Below are positions 41,259-55,256 of a DNA stretch of 55,256 nt, in pieces. Positions within the stretch are counted from its first letter, which is position 1. Every line of letters starts with the position of its first letter. The notes beneath the pieces are model-generated. The model saw nothing but the letters and a program-made list of their open reading frames with translations. It was not told the origin of the DNA and made no database searches. The translations under genes were made by a program, and so were the position numbers. The DNA comes from Leptolyngbyaceae cyanobacterium SM1_4_3 (GTDB lineage: Bacteria; Cyanobacteriota; Cyanobacteriia; Elainellales; Elainellaceae): contig JAAUTN010000009.1 in assembly GCA_012031415.1 (NCBI GenBank), forward strand, positions 1 to 55,256. The letters are read 5' to 3'.

Positions 41259-41909
41259 ATGAGAGTTAAATACGCTGCGGCTTTTGCTACTGCTTCAATC
41301 CTGAGCGTAGGGTTGGCAGTTGTCTTTTCCCAGTCCACGATAAACAGAGTCCAGGCCGGTCCTCAAACTGTTGCTCAATCCAATCCTTGTGCGGGTGCGA
41401 ATCCTTGTGCAGGTGCTAACCCTTGTGCGGGTGCGAATCCTTGTGCGGGTGCGAATCCTTGTGCAGGTGCTAACCCTTGTGCGGGTGCTGATGCTTCTAC
41501 GACCGACTCTACTGCACCTTCTGTTTACTCCGATACTAGTGGCCTAGCTATTCGAGGAACTGACCCAGTTGCTTACTTTACGGAGAGTGGACCTGTTCAA
41601 GGTAGTAGTCAATTTGAGTATGAGTGGAATGGTGCAACTTGGAGATTTGCTAGTGCCCAAAACCGCACGCGCTTTGCCAGCAACCCTGAAGCTTATGCCC
41701 CTCAGTATGGTGGCTATTGTGCTAAAGCGGTTAGCGAAGGTAATCTTGCCTCAATTGATCCCAATGCCTGGAGAATTGTAGAGGGTAAGCTCTATCTCAA
41801 CTACAGTGCAGAAGTGCAGCAGCAATGGTTGCAAGATGTTCCGGGCAACATTGCCAAGGCCGATGCCAACTGGCCTGAGGTGTTAGTCGGAAATGTTGTT
41901 CATCAATAG
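41259..41909 (+). CDS. Secreted YHS-domain protein with six NPCAGA repeats
   Basis: A 216-residue exported protein. Signal peptide (MRVKYAAAFATASILSVGLAVVFS, cleavage near residue 34-41), then six perfect NPCAGA hexapeptides (about residues 42-77; Cys every six residues), a Ser/Thr linker and a YHS domain (about 90-190: YSDTSGLAIRGTDPVAYF, FEYEWNGATWRFASAQNRTRFASNPEAYAPQYGGYCAKAVSEG, ending in a short helix). YHS domains are linked to metal, often copper or heavy-metal, handling. The Cys array suggests a soft-metal-binding tether. The family's C-terminal helix (WLQDVPGNIAKADANWP) is typical. Monocistronic or weakly linked to the SUMF1-like gene upstream. Confidence 0.9.
   Translation: MRVKYAAAFATASILSVGLAVVFSQSTINRVQAGPQTVAQSNPCAGANPCAGANPCAGANPCAGANPCAGANPCAGADASTTDSTAPSVYSDTSGLAIRGTDPVAYFTESGPVQGSSQFEYEWNGATWRFASAQNRTRFASNPEAYAPQYGGYCAKAVSEGNLASIDPNAWRIVEGKLYLNYSAEVQQQWLQDVPGNIAKADANWPEVLVGNVVHQ
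41382..41489 (+). repeat. Six 18-bp in-frame tandem repeats
   Basis: Each unit reads AATCCTTGTGCGGGTGCG or a synonymous variant (AAC/AAT, GCA/GCG, GCT/GCG). All substitutions are silent, pointing to selection on the NPCAGA peptide rather than very recent DNA slippage. Confidence 0.95.
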
Positions 41910-42359: not shown

Positions 42360-45190
42360 ATGTTGAGTCATAAGCTGCTGCGGTTGATTCTTCTTGTCAC
42401 CCTGGGTTTGCAAATCTTTGTTGTGGGACAGTTGAGCTATTTTTTCATCGGTAACGAGCCGCAGAGCAACGTTATCTTACTTGGTCTCTCGGCTGGAGGT
42501 TTGGCGATCGCCCTGACCTTTCTTCTTCAAATTGATCAGCGCCTCAAGCGAGAGACTGAAGGGAAAGCTGACGCGCTAAAAGAAATTAGTGCATCCAAAC
42601 AGGCTGAACAAGAATTACAGCAGCATAAAACTCAAATGCGTGCGTTCTATCAAATGGTAGTCGTCCAGGGTCTGACGTTTGAGCAAAGAGTTCAGCGATT
42701 TTTGGAGTTGGGCTGTGAATGTTTCAACTTAGAGCTTGGAATTTTTGCTCAAGTTGAAGAGAGTGACTATACCGTAGTTGCTGTTCACGGCTCAGACGAA
42801 TTACGTCCAGGTACAGTCTTTGACCTGAGCCAAACCTACTGTGCAGTTACCATTCACTCGGCAGAACCCGTCGGGTTTGAATTTGCACAAGAGTCAGAAT
42901 GGGTGACGCATCCCTGCTACCAAGCCTTCCGTCTGGAAGCTTACTTAGCCATGCGAGTTATGGTGAATGGAAAACTATACGGTACGCTCAATTTTTCCAG
43001 CCTGACTCCACACCCTCGCGAATTTACTAAAGTCGATCAGGGTCTGATTGAGATGATGTCTCAATGGATTGGCACGGCGCTAGAACGTCATCAATCAGAA
43101 GCAGCCCTCCATCAATCACAAGCTCGTTATCGTGCAGTAGTTGAAGACCAGACAGAATTGATCTGCCGCTTTCTGTCCGATGGAACGATTCTTTTTGTTA
43201 ACGAAGCTTTCTGTCGTTTTTTTGGAAGGGCGAAAGCAGAATTAATCGGTAAAAGCTATAAGCCAGTAATCTTTGAGGGCGATCGCGAAGCGGTCGTTCG
43301 GCTTATCGCGTCCATGAGTCTAGAACATCCAGTCGTCATGATTGAGAATCGAGTGCTGGTGAATGGTGAAATTCGCTGGACACAGTGGATAAACCGAATG
43401 ATTTTTGACCAGCAGGGACACTTTGTTGAGTATCAGTCAGTAGGGCGAGACATCACAGAGCTTAAACAGGCTGAGGAAGTTTCACGCCAGAACGAGGAGC
43501 GCTGGCAACTCGCTATTCAGGGAAATAACGACGGCATTTGGGATCATGACCTTGTAACGAACCGTCGCTTTATCTCTCCGCGCTGTACAGAAATTTTAGG
43601 ATACTTCTACGATGAGATTAGCGCATTTGACGCATGGATGAATATAGTTCATCCCGATGATGTTGAGAATATGCGTCAAGCTTTTCAAAGACACGTTGAC
43701 CGGGAAACCCCTTTTTACTCCTGTGAGTATCGAATTAAGTGTAAGGATGGTAGCTACAAGTGGCTGCTGACGCGGGGTAAGGCGCTGTGGAATGAGAAGG
43801 GAGAGGCAATTCGGGCGGTGGGTTCGGTTACAGATATTAGCGATCGCAAACGAGTAGAGTGGGAATTGCAGCAGGCGAAGGAAGCCGCCGAAGCCGCCAA
43901 TCGTGCTAAGAGTACATTTCTGTCCAACATGAGTCACGAGTTACGCACGCCTCTCAATGCAATTTTAGGATTTACTGAGCTTTTAAGTATGGACCCTGCT
44001 ACTAGCGACGAGCAGCTAGAACAGCTAGACATCATTCTTCGCAGCGGTGAGCATCTGTTGAAGTTGATTAATGATGTGCTTGAGCTATCTAAAATTGATG
44101 CAGGTCGAATCGTGTTGCATGAAAATCAATTCGACCTGCATCAACTGTTGAATGACTTGGAGACTATGCTCAGCAGTCAGGCATCCAGTAAGCGGCTACA
44201 GCTTTACTTTGTCTGCGCCCCAAACGTGCCTCAATATGTGCGTGCAGATGAAGGTAAACTGCGTCAGATTTTAATCAATCTATTGGGTAACGCAATTAAG
44301 TTTACTGAAAAAGGGAGTGTGAGTCTACGAGTTCAGCAGGCAAATCAGCAGACAAAGACAGACTTACCCTGCACTTTATATTCTTTACTCCTGCCTGACG
44401 TTGCTGGATCTGAGCGTATTTTGGAGCGTGAAGTTGAAGGTTTCACGCTCAAAATATACCTCTATTAAGCAATACTCTCCTGCCTTTTGTCCTGAGTTTT
44501 GAGGTTCAAGACACGGGCTTAGGGATTGCTCCTACGGAGATTGGTCAGTTGTTTGAGCCTTTTGTTCAAACGTCAACCGGACAGCAGCAACATCAGGGAA
44601 CGGGTCTGGGACTAGCAATCAGCAAACGGCTTGTACAGCTAATGGGTGGCCAAATTACAGTCAGCAGCGTGCCCAATCAGGGAACTGTCTTCAAATTTGA
44701 AATTCCGGTTAGCTTGATCAAACCCCACACTGAATCCACTTTCTCTGTCACTAAACGAGTGGCTAGTCTAGCACCTGGACAGCCTGCTTACCGCCTTTTA
44801 GTTGTGGAAGATCAACACGATAGCCGAAATTTAGCAGTCAAACTGCTCACTAAAGTAGGTTTTGATGTCTATGAAGCTACTGATGGTCAAGAAGCGATCG
44901 CCCTTTGGCAAAACTGGGAACCTGACCTAATTTTGATGGATATGCAAATGCCTGTGTTGAGTGGATATGAGGCAACTCAACAAATCCGAGTTTTGGAAGC
45001 AAACTGCACTGCCTCATCACCTCAACCCACAGTAATCATTGCAACGACTGCTAGTGCCTTTGAGGAGCAGCGATCGCAAATCTTACAGTCTGGCTGCAAC
45101 GATGCAGTTTATAAACCATACAAAGTAGAAGAGCTTTACGCCATTATTGCTAAGTATTTGGGCGTAAGTTACCTCTATTCACATGAGTAG
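42360..45190 (+). pseudogene. Hybrid sensor histidine kinase (TM-GAF-PAS-PAS-HisKA-HATPase-REC) split by a MITE
   Basis: Before the insertion the frame (42360 to about 44396) encodes two membrane helices (about 6-25 and 38-58), a GAF-like domain (about 90-245), two PAS/PAC domains (about 255-505, the second ending RAVGSVTDISDRKR), HisKA with the phospho-acceptor His in STFLSNMSHELRTPLNAIL, and the ATPase N-box LINLLGNAIKFTEKG. A 79-bp palindrome plus 9-bp duplication (44388-44484) then adds 88 nt and brings a stop at 44466. Removing it restores LLLPFVLSFEVQDTGLGIAP (G1 box), GTGLGLAIS (G2 box) and a REC domain (VVEDQHDS, DLILMDMQMP, final K near KPYK). The kinase is therefore inactivated here unless the 3' part is translated separately (ATG 44549). 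Confidence 0.9.
44388..44484. mobile_element. Palindromic MITE-like insertion with 9-bp target duplication inside the histidine kinase
   Basis: The direct repeat CTCCTGCCT at 44388-44396 and 44476-44484 bounds a 79-bp near-palindrome (44397-44475). Its ends GACGTTGCTGGAT and, reversed, AGTATTGCTTAAT match the 1172-1255 element. Its core hairpin is GAGCGTGAA...TTCACGCTC. Deleting element plus one repeat restores the kinase frame exactly. Confidence 0.88.
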
Positions 45191-46585: not shown

Positions 46586-48802
46586 TTAGACAGATCTGAG
46601 ATCTAAAGCTCGTTTGAGTTTCTGGAGTTTATCGCGATCGCTCTTCAACTCTTTCTGAACAATCTCGTGTTTTAGGATGCGTTTTCTAACAGGAGCCTGA
46701 TCTCTATCTGTTTCACTGGTAATGTGCATCATTTGATGCTTGGCAACTTGAAGGATTTTTTCAACTTGCTGTTCTTCAACCTCCAGTGCAAGGGTCAAAT
46801 TTTGTACCAGCTTTTCAACCAGACGATTTTTAGCCAGTGCTTGATAGTAGCTGCGTAGATTATTCCTAATCTTTTCCGCTTCCTTTTCTCGCTCTAGATC
46901 TCTATCTTCTCGATATAGGCGAATCAGAAACCTGAACAGAAAATAGAGAGCTATAACTAGCACAACAGATGAAATGTAAGGAGAAGCCTTAAATGCATTC
47001 ACAACGGGTGCTGAAATGTGCTGCATAATTTGCCGCCTGCCTGCAATTCCTAATACGCTAAAGAAGCTAAACATGAAGATGAATTGCATCCATTGACTTC
47101 TAATTTTCTTGAGCATATAAGCTATAGGAGACGCTTCTTGATAACGGCTTTCACTCAAAGGCATAGCAAAGGCTTCCTCAAAAATGGACTGGTTATCGAT
47201 GGTTTGCTCAGGCTGAAAGAGTGAACGATTCAAATTAACCGAAGGAATTGAGTGAAGCGCTTCATAAGCTTTTTGTAGTAGTCCTCTTAAGCCAGTTTGA
47301 GGGCACAGACACATTTCCCACTCTTCATCAGCCCACCAGCTTAATTCAGAACGGCAAAAGTTCATCAAAGCCGTATTTGCATCAATTATTTTTTCTTCGA
47401 CGGTTTCTGGTTTGAGTGGCTTGCGTTTAGCTCCTTTAGATTCAACGACTTCAATAGTAGAAAACCGTAGCTGAATATATTTTCGCCCCCGCTGTTTAAC
47501 CACATGAGGCGTTAGCTGGTCTACAAATCGTCGAATCTTATAAGAAATGCTATTTTCGAGATAATCGTCCAGTAGATCAACTTTTGACTGCTTTAATTTG
47601 TCTTTAGCCCGTTTGAAAAATACTCCTTTATCATCTTGAATTTGCCTCAGAACTGCATCAGCTTTTTCTTTGCTTTGGTTTTCTCTTGACTGTTGTAGTC
47701 GTGCCTGATCTCGCTGGTTTTCTCTTACTAATTTCTTTTCATCCCAATCAAGTAACTGTTCAAGCAAATTCAACTGAGCTAAAACCTGCGTGGTCAGTCG
47801 TCTAGCAAGAATATCTTCTGGTTTGCGCTTAACCAGTGACTCCAACGTTTTGAAGAGTTTATCTGACTCTTGTTGAAGTGTCGCGTTGTATTGGTCTGTT
47901 GATGTATTGGTCTGAGAATTACGTAGTGGCAGCCAAAAGACATTGGAGGAAGAAATAGACGGGTGCCAGGCATTCAAACTAGACCAGGACAATTTGGTAG
48001 TTTCAGCAGATTGACTGGGTGGATCTGATAGATCTGCTATGACTAAAAGATTAGCAAAGCCCGTTTTGCTAATCTTTTCAAGCAATTGTCGTTCAACCTC
48101 AGTTAAAGACGCATGAGGGTTTATCACCCAGCATAGAACGTCACATTCCGTAGTCAGGGTATCCACTCGCTCACCATCAGAAGCAACAATGGGGTGGTAC
48201 TCAAAGATTAGCTCTGGACTGGTTTCGGTGGGTGTAGGAGCGCCGAGAGTGATGCGATCGCCCTCCATTAAAACCTGACAGCCCTGCACCTGCTGTTCAT
48301 TAACATAGGTGCCATTTCTACTCAAGTCGCAAATTTGCCAACTTGTATAGGTTTGGTGAGAATCAGCTTCACAGGGCTGTATGTTGGCATGATATCCAGA
48401 AACCAGTACATACGAATCAGGAATTGGGATCTGGCACTCCGGGTGCCGTCCGATCGCTAGCTTTTCGGTGGTAAGGGGATAGCGCTGTGACGGGGCATTC
48501 GTTTGCAGAACGAATGCTGCTGTGGGTTCTGGCTGGGCTAGCTGCATGCTCGTCAGGGGTGTAACTTGAAACTGATAAGCTGCCGACAGGTTACAAGTCC
48601 TCAAAAGGTTATACAGCGCTGTTGCTAAGTTTGAATTGTGGCTCACAATTTGCAGCGTTAATTTCCCTGCTTGGAGAGAGAGTACACTTTTTTCTAACGT
48701 TTGAGCGATCGCCTCAAAGGTTTCATGCTGCTGGCTTCTAACAGCAACAAACTGCTGAATTTCCTGAATATTTTTGACCAGTTTTTCAGATTTAACTGAC
48801 AT
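46586..48802 (-). CDS. FHA-domain membrane protein resembling a dynamin with an eroded GTPase site
   Basis: A 738-residue protein. The FHA domain (about residues 120-210) has LAIGRHPECQIPIPDSYVLVSGYHANI (Arg-His-Ser-type phosphothreonine pocket residues) and DLSRNGTYVNEQQV. N-terminal LSLQAGKLTLQIVSHNSNLATALYNLL sits where a dynamin P-loop strand would be, but GxxxxGK(S/T) is absent. After the FHA, CDVLCWVINPHASLTEVERQLLEKISKTGFANLLVIADLSDP reads like the switch II to G4 part of a dynamin GTPase. A long basic coiled coil (about 320-430), two membrane helices (about 555-575 and 600-622) and a C-terminal helical tail follow. It lies 42 nt downstream of the Ser/Thr kinase gene, so it probably reads that kinase's phosphothreonines. 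The dynamin link is inference. Confidence 0.8.
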   Translation of the reverse strand: MSVKSEKLVKNIQEIQQFVAVRSQQHETFEAIAQTLEKSVLSLQAGKLTLQIVSHNSNLATALYNLLRTCNLSAAYQFQVTPLTSMQLAQPEPTAAFVLQTNAPSQRYPLTTEKLAIGRHPECQIPIPDSYVLVSGYHANIQPCEADSHQTYTSWQICDLSRNGTYVNEQQVQGCQVLMEGDRITLGAPTPTETSPELIFEYHPIVASDGERVDTLTTECDVLCWVINPHASLTEVERQLLEKISKTGFANLLVIADLSDPPSQSAETTKLSWSSLNAWHPSISSSNVFWLPLRNSQTNTSTDQYNATLQQESDKLFKTLESLVKRKPEDILARRLTTQVLAQLNLLEQLLDWDEKKLVRENQRDQARLQQSRENQSKEKADAVLRQIQDDKGVFFKRAKDKLKQSKVDLLDDYLENSISYKIRRFVDQLTPHVVKQRGRKYIQLRFSTIEVVESKGAKRKPLKPETVEEKIIDANTALMNFCRSELSWWADEEWEMCLCPQTGLRGLLQKAYEALHSIPSVNLNRSLFQPEQTIDNQSIFEEAFAMPLSESRYQEASPIAYMLKKIRSQWMQFIFMFSFFSVLGIAGRRQIMQHISAPVVNAFKASPYISSVVLVIALYFLFRFLIRLYREDRDLEREKEAEKIRNNLRSYYQALAKNRLVEKLVQNLTLALEVEEQQVEKILQVAKHQMMHITSETDRDQAPVRKRILKHEIVQKELKSDRDKLQKLKRALDLRSV

Positions 48803-48844: not shown

Positions 48845-51103
48845 TTAAGAACGCGAATCGAGGTGAGACATTTGCCAAAGTTTGATCGTTCTGTCCCAGC
48901 TTCCACTGGCTAGCGTCTGCCCATCGGGGCTAACCGCTACGGAGTAAACTTTACTGGTGTGTCCTCTGAAGGTGTGAAGTAACTCACCCGTATATAAGTT
49001 CCAGAGCTTTACCGTATTGTCTGCACTGCCGCTAACGAGCGTTCGGCTATCGGGACTGACGGCGATCGCGTGAACTTCATTGAAATGTCCAGTGAGGGTA
49101 TTGATTAATTCGCCACTGTGTAAATTCCAAACTTTAACGGTGTGGTCTGCACTGCCGCTGGCTAGCGTGGCTCCATTAGGGCTGATCGCGACGGCATGAA
49201 CCTCTGCGGAGTGTCCTTTCAACTGATGCAGAAGTTCTCCTGTCGGTAAGCTCCAAACCTTTACGGTATTATCTGTGCTGCCGCCAACCAGCAGCCAGCC
49301 GTCTGAACTGATGTCTAGTGAGGAAATCGGGGCTGTATGTCCTGTGAGGTCGTTTAACAGTTCGCCCGTTTGTAAGTTCCAAATTTTAATCGTGTTGTCT
49401 TCGCTGCTGCTCACTAAGGTTTGTCCATCTGGACTCATGGCAATCGCTGAAATTGTCCAGGTGTGACCTCTTAGCGTGTGTAGCAGTTCTCCAGTTTCAA
49501 GATTCCATACTTTAATGGTGTTGCCCATACTGCTGCTAGCCAAGAGTTGCCCATCAGCACTGGTGGCGATCGCTGGACTTTCTCCCGATCCGTCTGTCAA
49601 AGTTTGAATCGGTTGTTCTAAGACAACATCCCAAACTTTGATGGTTTTGTCTGTACTGGCGCTGGTAAGGGTTTCTCCATCTGCGTTGAAGGCGATCGCC
49701 GTAACCATTGAAGAGTGACCTGTAAGCGTTGAAATCAATCGTTCATCTCGCTGTTCACTAAACTCAGTAAATTGTGAGTTACGAGAAGAGTCTGAACCCG
49801 CCAGAAACCCAACAAAAATAGTTGTCCCAATTAGCATCAGCCCAATTCCAGCAAGTCGAGATATCATTTTGGGCTTGAGCAACCCCTTAAGGTCACACAA
49901 TCGCTGATAAATTTTGACTTGCGGTGTTTGATCAGGTTCCAATGGGCGAGTGGATGTCAGCAGTTGTTCGGTTTCTCGCTGCCGTCGATTCGTTTTGGAT
50001 GTTTCGTCAGATGGAAACAGATCCGGTAGAGGTCGCGAAACAGAAGGTTCTGCCTGGGGGGTAGTAGGTTTTACCTGAGTTGGGGTATAGCTAGAAGCAT
50101 CTGCTGACGGCAGCGCAGGAGCAGGGGAAGTAATCTTTGGTGTAGACACAGTATGGGCTAGAGCAGCATGATCAAGTTGCTCTAAATCGTGTATGACTGC
50201 TGCTGCGGTTTGGTAGCGGTCTTTCCAACTGTAGCGGGTCATAGTAGTCAGGATGGCTGCTAGTTCAGGGCTAACTTGTGTTTGCTGGGTCCAAAGTACT
50301 TCGGTAACACGCAGGTTTTCTTCAAAGCTACGAGGGTGAAGCCCTGTCAATGCCTGAATGCAAATCATGCCCAGAGCATAGATATCACTATTGAGGCAAG
50401 GTCTACCCCGAATTTGCTCTATTGGGGTGTATCCTGCACTGTTAATTGCAACCGTCACATCACTTTGTTGAGATACGATATCTCCCGTAGATGATTTCCC
50501 CAGTGCAGTTTGAATCTGTTTGACTGCGCCAAAGTCAATCAAGACGAGCCGATTATCGAGTTGGCGACGGATGATGTTTTCTGGCTTAATATCTCGGTGA
50601 ATGATGCCATGATCATGTACGAACGCCAAAATGCTCAAAACTTCCTTGAGAAGCTGAATGACTTGGGACTCAGACCAGCGATCGCCCTTCTCCTGATCTG
50701 ATGTAGCAGATTCAAAAGAAGCATCCCTAGCCGCTAATTCCAGGCTGAGTGGATGTCCTTCAATAAACTCCTGCACCAAGTAGAACTCTCGATCTTTCTC
50801 AAAGTGTGCCAGCAGTCGCGGAATCTGATCATGATGTCCCAGTTTTTCTAGCGTTTCTGCCTCGTTGCTAAATAAACGTCTGATATCATTCAAACTATCA
50901 AGCTCGGCTATTGCCAATGATTTGAGACGTTTGACCACACATTTAGGATGACCAGGGCGGCGAGTGTCCTGAGCGATGTAAGTTTCTCCAAAGCCGCCAC
51001 TGCCGAGTTTGTCAATCACCTGATATCGTCCGTCTAACAGTTCGTTGAGTGCAGACGACTGTACTGATGGTAGACCTTCGGAAGTATCAAGACTGGTAGG
51101 CAT
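48845..51103 (-). CDS. Ser/Thr protein kinase with transmembrane helix and WD40 propeller
   Basis: A Hanks-type kinase of about 752 aa. Kinase domain (about 18-300): GSGGFGETYIA glycine loop, VVKRL (catalytic Lys), IIHRDIKPENII catalytic loop, LIDFGAVKQ (DFG), ADGxxPIEQxRG-like activation segment (YTPIEQIRGRP). A Pro/Thr-rich linker follows, then one membrane helix (about 410-432, GIGLMLIGTTIFVGFLAG) and seven WD40 units (about 450-752), each near 40 residues and ending (V/I)KVWNL-like. I start at ATG 51103 (GGGGAA upstream), not the TTG at 51172. The kinase is cytoplasmic and the propeller lies across the membrane. It precedes the FHA gene on the same strand and diverges from the coiled-coil cluster. 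Confidence 0.95.
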   Translation of the reverse strand: MPTSLDTSEGLPSVQSSALNELLDGRYQVIDKLGSGGFGETYIAQDTRRPGHPKCVVKRLKSLAIAELDSLNDIRRLFSNEAETLEKLGHHDQIPRLLAHFEKDREFYLVQEFIEGHPLSLELAARDASFESATSDQEKGDRWSESQVIQLLKEVLSILAFVHDHGIIHRDIKPENIIRRQLDNRLVLIDFGAVKQIQTALGKSSTGDIVSQQSDVTVAINSAGYTPIEQIRGRPCLNSDIYALGMICIQALTGLHPRSFEENLRVTEVLWTQQTQVSPELAAILTTMTRYSWKDRYQTAAAVIHDLEQLDHAALAHTVSTPKITSPAPALPSADASSYTPTQVKPTTPQAEPSVSRPLPDLFPSDETSKTNRRQRETEQLLTSTRPLEPDQTPQVKIYQRLCDLKGLLKPKMISRLAGIGLMLIGTTIFVGFLAGSDSSRNSQFTEFSEQRDERLISTLTGHSSMVTAIAFNADGETLTSASTDKTIKVWDVVLEQPIQTLTDGSGESPAIATSADGQLLASSSMGNTIKVWNLETGELLHTLRGHTWTISAIAMSPDGQTLVSSSEDNTIKIWNLQTGELLNDLTGHTAPISSLDISSDGWLLVGGSTDNTVKVWSLPTGELLHQLKGHSAEVHAVAISPNGATLASGSADHTVKVWNLHSGELINTLTGHFNEVHAIAVSPDSRTLVSGSADNTVKLWNLYTGELLHTFRGHTSKVYSVAVSPDGQTLASGSWDRTIKLWQMSHLDSRS

Positions 51104-51195
51104 AAAATAATATTCCCCATACAGTTCTCTATTTACTTCTCGGTTGAGAACACTGTGTTTTATGCAAACCAAACAGTAATTTGCAAAGACTGTTC

Positions 51196-51741: not shown

Positions 51742-52635
51742 ATGTCAGATATCACCGACTTAATTGATCAGAACATTGAGAAAATGAGGGAACTTTCGCA
51801 GGAGGGCGATCGCGCCCTTGAGGAAGTGAATGAACTGGAAGAGTTAATCGACACGCTGAGCGAAAACTTAGCATCTAAAGAACAGGAGACACTCTCCGGT
51901 TTTGAAACGCTCAGTCAACGCCTGGAAACGCTAGAACAACAGTTGTCAACTGAAATTCAAATGGCAAAAGATAGCCTCAGCCCGATTCAAGAAGCCGCTC
52001 AGGGAATTGAAACTCAACTCACTGGATTTGCTGAAATGATTCGCGGTCAGCTTAGTGAACTGCAAAGCAGCGCTGAGGAAATGATGAGTGAAATCGAAGC
52101 GAAGGCGACTGAAATTCAGCAAAATTTAGATACGATGACCACTCAGGCAGAGGAATTTGGCTCTGAAGTAGACACGCTGGAAGATGAAGCGGTCGCAGAG
52201 ATTGACGGCATGAAAGAATCGGTCGTGTCCGTTCGCAGTGAGTTTACCCAAAGTCAAACCCAACTCACCGATGGGTTTACCGCTTTGATGGAACTGATTG
52301 GTGAAAAACTAGAAACCCTGCAAGCAGATTTTGAGCATTTGATTGAAACCAGTAACACTGAACTAGGTGAACTGGATGTGGCTCTGGAAACGTCTGCCAG
52401 TGATGCGTTCACAACTATCCAAGAAAAGTTCAATGAGATTGGTGAAGGAATCACTACTTCGGCCCAAGAGTTGGTAGAAGCGGTTGCAGCAGTCGGGGAA
52501 GAGGCAGTGACGGATTGTGAAGAAATGAGCGATCGCTTTGGCGACATTATCGACAAATGCGGTGATGTAGTGGCGATTATTCAAGAGATGATGCCAACTC
52601 TCGAAAACGTAGAGGAAACGCTTGGGCAGGGATGA
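51742..52635 (+). CDS. Acidic coiled-coil protein 1
   Basis: A 297-residue, strongly acidic (Glu/Asp-rich, few Lys) all-helical protein with heptad patterns over nearly its whole length (MRELSQEGDRALEEVNELEELIDTL...). No signal peptide, no membrane segment, no recognised domain. The C-terminal part has DAFTTIQEKFNEIGEGITTSAQELVEAVAAVGEEAVTDCEEMSDRFGDIIDKCGDVV, with two Cys and less charge, likely a packing helix pair. It shares composition and layout with the 52816 and 54858 proteins. AAGAGG precedes the ATG. Function unknown. Confidence 0.85.
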   Translation: MSDITDLIDQNIEKMRELSQEGDRALEEVNELEELIDTLSENLASKEQETLSGFETLSQRLETLEQQLSTEIQMAKDSLSPIQEAAQGIETQLTGFAEMIRGQLSELQSSAEEMMSEIEAKATEIQQNLDTMTTQAEEFGSEVDTLEDEAVAEIDGMKESVVSVRSEFTQSQTQLTDGFTALMELIGEKLETLQADFEHLIETSNTELGELDVALETSASDAFTTIQEKFNEIGEGITTSAQELVEAVAAVGEEAVTDCEEMSDRFGDIIDKCGDVVAIIQEMMPTLENVEETLGQG

Positions 52636-52674
52636 GGAATGAGGGATGAAGGATGAGGGATGAAACCTACCTCG

Positions 52675-52770
52675 TTCCAATGCTCTGCGTTGGAATGCCC
52701 AATGGAGGCTCTGCCTCCTCAAACTAGCGGCAGAGCCGCTTGGATAGGATTCCCAGGCGGAGCCTGGGAA
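52675..52770. repeat. Four tandem hairpins in a row
   Basis: TTCCAA...TTGGAA (52675-52695), GGAGGC-TCT-GCCTCC (52704-52718), AGCGGC-AGA-GCCGCT (52726-52740) and TTCCCAGGC-GGA-GCCTGGGAA (52750-52770). Preceded by a GGATGA(G/A) tract (52630-52662). It lies between two coiled-coil genes and may partly terminate or process their transcript. Confidence 0.85.
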
Positions 52771-52815
52771 CCAGATTAAAAAACTTTTACTCGTTGTTAA
52801 ACGGAGAAACTCATC

Positions 52816-53799
52816 ATGGCTGAAGTGGTTGAACTCAATACTAATGTTGAAGAAACTTCAGATGCGCTAGAACGATTGCTCACGACTCTGGAGCAGGCGT
52901 GTGGAGACTTTCGAGAGCTAGCGACGGAACTGGAGACTGAGACGGAAGAATTGCGTCAAGGCGATGAACTGGACAGTCAGCTAGAAGCGCTGGAGCAAAG
53001 TTTATCTGATGCAGATAGTCAACTGGAAACAGCAGAAACAGAACTCACGTCCGCTTTAGATGAGTTGGAAGGGGCGATCGCCGACATCTCCACCGAACTC
53101 GAAGAAGCAAACAGCACCATCACCGAGATGCAAGGAGAATTTGGAGAACTCACTACTGCAATCACTGAATTTGAGACAGAACTGACCGAAGCTCAACAGG
53201 CACTAGGCACGCTTGAAGGGGCAGTGACCCAGCTTGAAGATGGCTTAACAGAAGCAATTCAAACCACCCAGGAAGCCTTTGAAACCCTGGAGCAAACCAT
53301 CACTGAAACCGAAGCCCAGGTAGATACTTTCTCTGAAATTGAAACTGATATTGATGAACTCGTCAGTGAACTGCAAGGCGCTCATCGAGAGACAATTGAA
53401 ACTAACTTTGACGAACTCAGTGAGGAGTTAAGAAGCACTCATTCTGAGGCAATCACCACTGCCAGTGATGATTGTGAAACCAGGCTCACAGAGCTATTTG
53501 AAACCTTTAGCACCGACGTGAGTGAAACCGTTGACCAGTACGAACAAGATGTCACCGAGGTAATTTCAGGACTTGCGGACGAGTGTGAAAACACTCATAA
53601 GGCAGCAGTCGGTGAAGCAGTGGAAGAAGTCACAGGTGGAGCCGTTGAAGAAATTGAAGGTGAAGCGGAAGAAACCAAAGGCGAAATGGAAGAAGCCCTA
53701 TCTGTAATGAGTGAACTTGACCCACTGACTCAAGAAGTCGTTACCGCTGCAAATGTGATGGTTGCTGCTAACACAATGGTCGAAGAAATGCTGGCTTAA
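52816..53799 (+). CDS. Acidic coiled-coil protein 2
   Basis: A 327-residue, extremely acidic helical protein with long heptad runs (LERLLTTLEQACGDFRELATELETETEEL..., then ELTSALDELEGAIADISTELEEA). The last 50 residues, GAVEEIEGEAEETKGEMEEALSVMSELDPLTQEVVTAANVMVAANTMVEEMLA, end in an Ala/Val/Met-rich helix that could contact a membrane or partner. GGAGAA precedes the ATG. It follows protein 1 by 180 nt with the four-hairpin repeat between. No domain recognised; it could be an elongated spacer, filament or scaffold. Confidence 0.85.
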   Translation: MAEVVELNTNVEETSDALERLLTTLEQACGDFRELATELETETEELRQGDELDSQLEALEQSLSDADSQLETAETELTSALDELEGAIADISTELEEANSTITEMQGEFGELTTAITEFETELTEAQQALGTLEGAVTQLEDGLTEAIQTTQEAFETLEQTITETEAQVDTFSEIETDIDELVSELQGAHRETIETNFDELSEELRSTHSEAITTASDDCETRLTELFETFSTDVSETVDQYEQDVTEVISGLADECENTHKAAVGEAVEEVTGGAVEEIEGEAEETKGEMEEALSVMSELDPLTQEVVTAANVMVAANTMVEEMLA

Positions 53800-53815
53800 G
53801 TACATCAAGTTATAG

Positions 53816-53893
53816 GGTGTATTAGGCAAAGCTGTAACATACCACCCTAGAAGGCTTGGGTGCGTTACGCTACCGCTAACACATCCGCACCGA
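53816..53893. repeat. Intergenic repeat with inverted segments
   Basis: AGGGTGTATTAGGCAAAGC and GGTGCGTTACGCTACCGC resemble the common cyanobacterial GTAGGGTGTGTTAGCG...CGTAACGCACC element, also seen in part at about 3218-3255. It lies between coiled-coil protein 2 and the glycine-zipper gene. Confidence 0.5.
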
Positions 53894-53934
53894 ATGCAAA
53901 ACCAACGAAGCAAAAACACAAGTACATAAGGGGA

Positions 53935-54375
53935 ATGAAAACTGTGAGCGTACAAAATTTAATTAGCCGCATCGAAACAGCTAGAAGTAATCTTCAAGGA
54001 GCAAAAACTCAGTTGTTTAGTTCAAGGGCAATAAATCCTGCAAACATCACTAGCCTTCAAAATCCAGGAACTACGGAACCTTGTACTCCAGAACCTAAAC
54101 CAGGTAGGGGAGAAGCAATACTGAAGGGGGCTTTGGCCGGTGCAGGGACAGGGGCTGTGGTTGGTGTAGGGGCTGGAGTAGCAATAGGTGTTGCTCCAGC
54201 AGCCACTGGAGTTGGTGCTGTAGCAACACCTATAACCGTCCCTCAAGGTATAGTTGCAGGTGGAATTATTGGAGCAGGTATAGGGGCTGGAGTAGGAGCA
54301 GTTGGCGGCTTACTATACTACGAGATAGATGCTATACCCGATGAGGGATGCCCTACGTTGCCACCCACACTGTAA
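53935..54375 (+). CDS. Glycine-zipper membrane protein, 146 aa
   Basis: Residues 1-55 are polar, with two short helices (VQNLISRIETARSNLQGAKTQLFSS) and a Cys/Pro stretch (CTPEPKPGRG). Residues about 57-130 form two glycine-zipper hydrophobic segments: AGAGTGAVVGVGAGVAIGV and GIVAGGIIGAGIGAGVGAVGG, a pattern that packs in membranes and can oligomerise into pores or channels. The tail (YYEIDAIPDEGCPTLPPTL) is acidic. No classical signal peptide. AAGGGG precedes the ATG closely; a GTG at 53944 is the alternative, and an in-frame start at 53860 is unlikely. It sits among the coiled-coil genes, so a membrane-inserting partner of them is a possible role. Confidence 0.75.
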   Translation: MKTVSVQNLISRIETARSNLQGAKTQLFSSRAINPANITSLQNPGTTEPCTPEPKPGRGEAILKGALAGAGTGAVVGVGAGVAIGVAPAATGVGAVATPITVPQGIVAGGIIGAGIGAGVGAVGGLLYYEIDAIPDEGCPTLPPTL

Positions 54376-54857
54376 TAAACTACTAGTGCAAGTCTGGTTA
54401 GTTTTCTCTTGCAGTAAACCTTTTTAATAGAAAGCTAGTAGAGCGGGCATTGCCTACTCTACAATCAAAATTCTGCCTCAGAGCGTGAGTTGTTGAGTTC
54501 AGAATATGACGGTTTAGCCTCAGAACCCAAAGTTTCACCTTTGGAAATCAAAATTTCTCCTCCAGAACAGAAAATTTATCCTTCGGAGCAGAAAACTTTG
54601 GGATCAAAGCAGTAAATTTCTCCTGCGGAAGTCAAAATTTCTCCTTCAAAGGCTGAAACTTTGGGTTCAGAGTAGTAAATTTTGAGGCCGGAATAGCAAA
54701 TTTCAGGTTCAGAAGCTCAATGGTTGCGATCACCACTCAAAAATTTCTTCTCTAAACAGCAACGATTGAGTTCAAAATGCCATCGTTCGGGTTTCCAAGC
54801 TTGAACCTTGAAAGTTTCTAAGTCCAGCATTTCTCACAATTCATTAGAGGTAATTAC
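54376..54857. other. Non-coding stretch carrying a 21-nt-period array
   Basis: No gene on either strand: stops occur in all frames. Most of it is the degenerate array described at 54460-54800. The remainder (54376-54459) is AT-rich with no clear structure. A ribosome site AGAGG precedes the next start. Confidence 0.75.
54460..54800 (+). repeat. Degenerate tandem array, exact 21-nt period, about 16 units
   Basis: Units follow a loose consensus NN-TCA-GAA-NNN-AAA-ATT-TCT (for example CCTTTGGAAATCAAAATT and CCTGCGGAAGTCAAAATT). The GAA-equivalent triplet recurs at 54481, 54502, 54523, 54544, 54565, 54586, 54607, 54628, 54649, 54670, 54691, 54712, 54733, 54754, 54775 and 54796, with no phase slip. 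In the triplet frame some units contain TAA or TAG, so it is not an open reading frame now. 21 bp equals two helical turns, placing AAATTT tracts on one DNA face. Confidence 0.85.
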
Positions 54858-55256
54858 CATGAGTGAAGCAACCAGTTCTTTGGAACAGTTAGCAACGGAT
54901 TTACCTGAAAAACTGAGGCTTCTCACCGAGGAAGCAAGTGCAGTTCAGGATGAAATTAATACGTTTGAAGAAAGTTTGAGTGGAATGCAGGAGGAGTTTA
55001 GCGGACTAATCGATCAAATTGAAACCAGTTTGGATGAGTTGCAATCGGAAGTAACAGAGCATCAGACCGAACTGACCGAAAGTATCTCGGATTTGGGCAG
55101 TGAGTTTGAGACTTTGCAAAGTGAAGTGATGAGCGATCGCACCGAACTTGAAACCGAGCTACAAGAAGCCCAGACTAAGCTCACCGAACTCAACACCAGT
55201 TTAGAGGAAGGCTTGTCATCCCTCTCAACGGCGGGTGAAACGGCTCTCAATACGTT
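54858..55256 (+). CDS. Acidic coiled-coil protein 3 (cut by the window end)
   Basis: The open frame from ATG 54858 runs 133 codons to the end of the window. It begins MSEATSSLEQLATDLPEKLRLL and continues as Glu/Leu/Ser/Thr-rich heptads (DEINTFEESLSGMQEEFSGLIDQIETSLDEL...), the same style as proteins 1 and 2, including the QTELTESISDLGSEFETLQSEV segment. AGAGG lies 11 nt upstream. No other domain within the visible part. It shows that the cluster extends beyond this window. Confidence 0.85.

Follow-up and report, generated by a model that had tools for sequence, protein, structure and literature searches.

The question raised by this locus is whether a cyanobacterial protein that carries an FHA domain is a dynamin that has lost its GTPase site and come under the control of threonine phosphorylation. 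The window, the whole stretch of 55,256 nucleotides that was analysed, comes from a cyanobacterium, and the gene is ORF 46586-48802(-) (738 aa, ATG start). The initial annotation had read this ORF as an FHA protein resembling a dynamin whose GTPase site is lost and into which an FHA domain is inserted. The ORF was confirmed, the quoted strings are present (KLTLQIVSHNSNLATALYNLL, residues 47-67; CDVLCWVINPHASLTEVERQLLEKI, residues 220-244; LLVIADLSDP, residues 252-261), and Pfam PF00498, the only family above cut-off, matches residues 117-187 (E 2.8e-13). The nearest named relatives are found in Leptolyngbyaceae MAG RM1_406_9 and Cyanobacteria bacterium FACHB-471. The family is present in 25 of 388 sampled cyanobacterial genomes (genome search, E 1e-20 or better), with identities to the window protein ranging from 81% to about 25%. 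The full architecture is kept by relatives at 81, 76, 48, 46, 39 and about 28% identity, so the ORF is more than a chance reading frame.

The genes of the locus and the parts of the protein are given below. Residue numbers are those of the 738-aa protein.

46586..48802 (-): gene of the FHA-bearing pseudo-dynamin, 738 aa (ORF, Pfam and profile matches)
48845..51172 (-): gene of a Ser/Thr kinase with WD40 repeats, directly upstream of the pseudo-dynamin; HRDIKPEN and DFG intact
51742..52635 (+): type 3 of the four acidic coiled-coil proteins
52816..53799 (+): type 0 of the same four; in relatives its C-terminus is hydrophobic
54808..55254 (+): type 2 of the four, its start only, the window ending within the gene
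48662..48802 (-): N-terminal helices, residues 1-47 (helices 4-22 and 27-39 predicted with low confidence; putative BDLP neck helices)
48596..48664 (-): strand and helix at the presumed place of the P-loop, without GKS, residues 47-69 (placed by order)
48551..48577 (-): strand YQFQVTPLT, placed where dynamins have the DxxG strand but lacking DxxG, residues 76-84
48242..48454 (-): FHA domain, residues 117-187 (PF00498, E 2.8e-13); phosphothreonine-binding residues intact
48020..48145 (-): match to the strand and helix that follow switch II in dynamins and to their G4 strand, without NKxD, residues 220-261 (profile comparison, PDB search)
47513..47899 (-): long helices matching dynamin neck and trunk, residues 302-430 (profile alignment, low-confidence prediction)
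46907..47098 (-): two hydrophobic segments that align with the paddle region of BDLP, residues 569-632 (hydropathy, profile alignment)
46601..46906 (-): C-terminal helices, residues 633-734 (profile alignment, low-confidence prediction)

Other family matches were rejected. IcmF-related, PSII_Pbs27, VPS51 and COG7 (weak Pfam matches in relatives) are below cut-off or inconsistent across members, and NCBIfam TIGR01620, at residues 544-674, is far below its cut-off. The protein has no PADLOC match.

Dynamin descent was examined with a profile of 26 family sequences, the FHA part excised, which was compared by HHalign with diverse cyanobacterial dynamin-like proteins. This HMM-HMM comparison, proposed in the initial annotation, gave a co-linear match over 457 columns (E 2.4e-9, score 84.5), beginning immediately behind switch II and reaching the C-terminal helices. 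Reversed targets scored 22.5, unrelated families (response regulators, SDRs, kinases, acidic coiled coils) scored at most 26.6 forward or reversed, and shuffled-column controls of earlier HHalign runs scored at most 19.2. Each half also matches dynamins when taken alone: the G-like half with score 45 (E 3e-5), the helical half with score 42.5 (E 2e-4). In an unfiltered search with a dynamin HMM, some acidic coiled-coil proteins came out ahead of members of the family. This indicates a composition bias in the helical half; that half alone is therefore not trusted, and the unfiltered run, dominated by coiled-coil bias, is not used as support.

The head segment that follows the FHA domain was searched against PDB (177,635 sequences). 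The top matches are three constructs of the mitofusin Fzo1 (E 0.0015-0.0019), and EngA comes next (0.085). A longer post-FHA profile again placed Fzo1 first (E 0.009), with TrmE and EngA lower. In the genome search, the post-FHA profile gave weak matches outside the family (E 6e-4 to 1e-2), a number of which lie on open frames of about 680-716 aa. The single match whose sequence was read (L144) is a dynamin-like protein, and its P-loop, GDLKRGKS, is intact. In a mixed database of 798 proteins, the non-family matches at E < 1 are dynamins only. The dynamin used as reference (L034) has both PF00350 and PF21808 and is closely homologous to Nostoc BDLP (PDB 2J68). The assignment of CDVLCWVINPHASLTEVERQLLEKI and LLVIADLSDP to the switch II to G4 part agrees with both the HHalign alignment of the post-switch II segment and the Fzo1 match. 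Pfam Dynamin_N and PF21808 match neither the window protein nor nine relatives. Residues 1-92 alone gave no GTPase signal in a profile search (N-terminal strand and helix: best E 0.02). Taken together, the profile evidence supports dynamin descent of the 738-aa protein.

The nucleotide site is lost. A P-loop GxxxxGKS/T is present at the expected place in 0 of 27 members. The position of the Walker A Lys is Ala in 18 members and Lys in none; the following Ser/Thr and the DxxG and NKxD (or RD) positions are unconserved across the 27. Read from the sequences, FHA-less members have about 55 residues between the first strand and the CDVLC strand, versus about 130 in BDLP, so that a large portion of switch I is missing. 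The claim that the GTPase site is lost therefore holds. As to KLTLQIVSHNSNLATALYNLL at the P-loop strand and helix, the loss of GKS stands, whereas its placement there follows from order, the segment having no significant match alone. The P-loop is part of the definition of dynamin superfamily GTPases, and a review of cyanobacterial dynamins finds it in nearly all its collected sequences and does not mention FHA domains (PMC5827413). By its sequence, the protein is dynamin-derived, yet fails the nucleotide features that define dynamin GTPases; pseudo-dynamin is used here in that sense.

The FHA domain is located directly before the segment that follows switch II, not at a terminus. Three relatives are devoid of it: L029 (585 aa), L021 (555 aa) and the divergent L141 (544 aa), the last of which the post-FHA profile detected in an additional genome. 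The domain is therefore a module that members may have or lack between about residues 90 and 205, in agreement with the initial reading of an FHA domain inserted in a dynamin. In the tree, the FHA-less rows are scattered, L141 and L021 being on long branches and L029 weakly placed, so the tree fits either one gain of the FHA with losses or several gains. Among FHA-bearing members, G118, R119, S135, H138, N163 and N168 are nearly invariant. FHA residues of this kind hold phosphothreonine. Since they are intact, the FHA of the pseudo-dynamin is expected to bind phosphothreonine.

The remainder of the protein was described initially as a long coiled coil, paired membrane helices and a helical tail. 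The hydrophobic pair was recovered: segment 569-589 is marginal (mean hydropathy 1.38) and segment 605-632 (approximate start) is clear (2.25). Of 27 relatives, 25 conserve the pair; in L020 and L006 it is weaker. It lies at the aligned place between the trunk helices, where dynamins have their membrane-binding tip, and would form such a tip here. The long helices that flank it come from low-confidence predicted secondary structure. AlphaFold, run on three sequences (window, L007, L008), gave pLDDT of 38 for the full protein and 37 for residues 1-335, values too low for a usable model. In BDLP, neck helices are found within residues 1-68, and the hydrophobic tip is at the paddle (PMC2862293). 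The two predicted helices ahead of the strand at the P-loop place may correspond to these neck helices.

The kinase gene is separated from the pseudo-dynamin gene by about 45 bp in the window, and the two genes overlap in several relatives. As controls, 20 stretches of 18 kb were taken arbitrarily from some of the genomes that hold family loci. A kinase-related gene is found at 21 of 27 family loci versus 2 of 20 controls; at the other six family loci, no kinase is found in the stretch seen. One FHA-bearing locus (L156) has a degenerate kinase only. An active neighbouring kinase, with intact motifs, accompanies 19 of 24 FHA-bearing loci versus none of the three FHA-less ones (Fisher p 0.019; few cases, phylogeny ignored). 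At the FHA-less loci L161 and L165, there is no kinase in the stretch seen. The pseudokinase beside FHA-less L021 (L160:10419-12506(-)) has Asn instead of the VAIK Lys (CVVN), HGN instead of HRD and GFG instead of DFG. This coincidence of FHA absence with the absence of an active kinase is the strongest available indication that what the linked kinase produces is read by the FHA.

Several relatives have, immediately downstream of the pseudo-dynamin gene and convergent with it, a gene for a second FHA protein of about 425-475 aa (L152:6967-8262(+), similar in L154, L155 and L156); that of L152 carries WD40 repeats. The module may thus use two FHA readers. The kinase 48845-51172(-) matches the PADLOC PD-T4-6 models (E 3.5e-91). 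These models are probably generic to Hanks-type kinases; a defence role is conceivable but is not claimed here.

Acidic coiled-coil genes are found at 20 of 27 family loci versus 0 of 20 control stretches; the arrays lie in the window (51742-55254(+)) and in L146-L164. Their products (about 300 aa; about 18-30% Asp+Glu, 9-11% Thr) belong to four mutually similar, paralogous types, and complete arrays generally hold one of each. They match no specific family above cut-off and gave coil-type matches only. The type 1 gene of the same genome is on another contig (C93:731-1612). Type 1 is present in 23 of 388 genomes, all 23 being among the 25 that have the pseudo-dynamin (p 4e-35, phylogeny ignored). 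The co-occurrence extends to three genomes in which the genes lie apart (G299, G322, G359). The two genomes that have the pseudo-dynamin but not type 1 (G010, G079) are one lineage, with weaker membrane segments. The kinase, the pseudo-dynamin and the four acidic coiled-coil paralogues are a conserved module. Their co-inheritance suggests a membrane machine switched by phosphorylation.

Several other features of these loci were observed. The system occurs twice in one genome (G165), and either copy has a separate coiled-coil array. One copy is on C30 (L152) with FHA and kinase, the other on C103 (L161), FHA-less and with no kinase in the stretch seen. In the window, a 171-aa protein encoded among the coiled-coil genes (53860-54375(+)) has a long glycine-zipper-like hydrophobic stretch and no Pfam match; L007 has a homologue in the corresponding position. 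Two ORFs in different frames (42360-44468 and 44549-45190(+)) encode a sensor histidine kinase of the PAS/GAF type. Its L007 relative is a single 811-aa ORF matching both, so the split in the window is a frameshift or an assembly error. ORF 41259-41909(+) encodes an exported-looking protein with six CAGANP repeats, followed by a domain that resembles, by eye, YHS-type proteins.

The reading preferred here, held with somewhat more confidence than doubt, is that of a dynamin-derived pseudo-GTPase that would act as a membrane-anchored scaffold, its assembly being set by the kinase and the FHA instead of GTP. The elongated body, like that of bacterial dynamins, would comprise a reduced G-like head, the N-terminal fold of which is presumptive, a helical neck and trunk, a hydrophobic membrane tip and C-terminal helices, with the FHA in the switch region. 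The hydrophobic pair would anchor it in the membrane. The upstream Ser/Thr kinase would phosphorylate threonines, most likely its own or those of the acidic Thr-rich coiled-coil proteins, which are the leading candidates for phosphorylated partners. The FHA would bind the phosphothreonine. This binding, replacing GTP binding and hydrolysis, would set the assembly of pseudo-dynamins with each other and with coiled-coil partners, and a phosphorylation signal would thereby cause a membrane to be scaffolded or tethered. We infer the phosphopeptide gating from three observations: the FHA residues are intact, a kinase is linked, and FHA and active kinase are absent together. The extension of this scheme to a six-component membrane system, in which threonine phosphorylation read by the FHA replaces GTP as assembly switch and the coiled coils are the phosphorylated, co-assembling partners, is proposed tentatively.

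The main rival accepts a dynamin-derived pseudo-GTPase and reads the FHA as a docking module to a phosphorylated partner, assembly being constitutive and ungated. FHA domains often serve as plain recruitment modules, and the persistence of three FHA-less relatives implies that the pseudo-dynamin body works without one. The FHA is located here in the switch region rather than at an end of the protein, however, and its absence goes with that of an active neighbouring kinase; docking without gating is considered possible but rather unlikely. That the FHA protein is an ordinary signalling adaptor, with the kinase and coiled-coil genes as chance company, would fit the abundance of kinases and FHA proteins in cyanobacteria (PMC2176072, a survey of cyanobacterial kinases in which dynamin is not mentioned). 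The excess over control stretches (kinase 21/27 vs 2/20, coiled coils 20/27 vs 0/20) and the co-inheritance (p 4e-35, phylogeny ignored), which includes unlinked genes, already disfavour chance company, and this reading is given very little credence.

Two further alternatives concern the head. An unrelated alpha/beta domain joined to helices could resemble a dynamin by convergence and composition; the lack of a match for the N-terminal part, the lack of a Pfam dynamin match and the coil bias in one search direction all fit this. It is nevertheless improbable, given the low-bias matches of the G-like part alone (Fzo1 E 0.0015, HHalign E 3e-5) and a full-length co-linear match whose score far exceeds those of the controls. 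Some nucleotide-binding sites lack a classical P-loop, and the protein could be an unusual active GTPase or ATPase with a divergent site. Against this, the motif positions of Walker A (Lys, Ser/Thr), DxxG and NKxD have been lost or vary among the 27 members, and FHA-less members have about 55 residues from the first strand to CDVLC where BDLP has about 130; an active enzyme is thus highly improbable.

The preferred reading, a dynamin-derived pseudo-GTPase governed by phosphorylation, was compared with known systems. Nostoc BDLP (PDB 2J68, 2J69, 2W6D; PF00350 and PF21808) shares the co-linear profile from after switch II to the C-terminus, the hydrophobic tip at the paddle and helices ahead of the head. 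The pseudo-dynamin differs from it in having no P-loop, DxxG or NKxD, a shorter head, an FHA in the switch region, and a linked kinase and coiled-coil set. Fzo1 (PDB 9KFF, 9KFD, 9KFE), which of all solved structures matches the post-FHA segment best (E 0.0015), is also a membrane-anchored dynamin-family protein, but it is eukaryotic, an active GTPase, and has no FHA. OdhI/GarA and FhaB (FHA proteins paired with Hanks-type kinases; NCBIfam matches) share the conserved FHA binding residues and an adjacent Ser/Thr kinase; their architectures are small or different, none with a dynamin body. PseudoGTPases of the p190RhoGAP type (PMC9840978, PMC10211241) keep a GTPase fold without nucleotide chemistry but are eukaryotic and of other GTPase families; the papers searched describe none with a dynamin body or FHA insert. 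Among the parts of the open-access full-text literature covered, no protein combining an FHA with a bacterial dynamin and no pseudo- or degenerate dynamin of this kind is described, which is weak evidence; the module of kinase, four coiled-coil proteins and pseudo-dynamin is apparently undescribed.

Dynamins are taken to need GTP. If the proposed mechanism is true, a phosphopeptide reader in the switch region would mean that the dynamin assembly cycle can be driven by a signal other than GTP. This lineage would then allow tests of which parts of the action of dynamins depend on GTP, and the co-inherited kinase and four coiled-coil proteins would provide a defined module for doing so.
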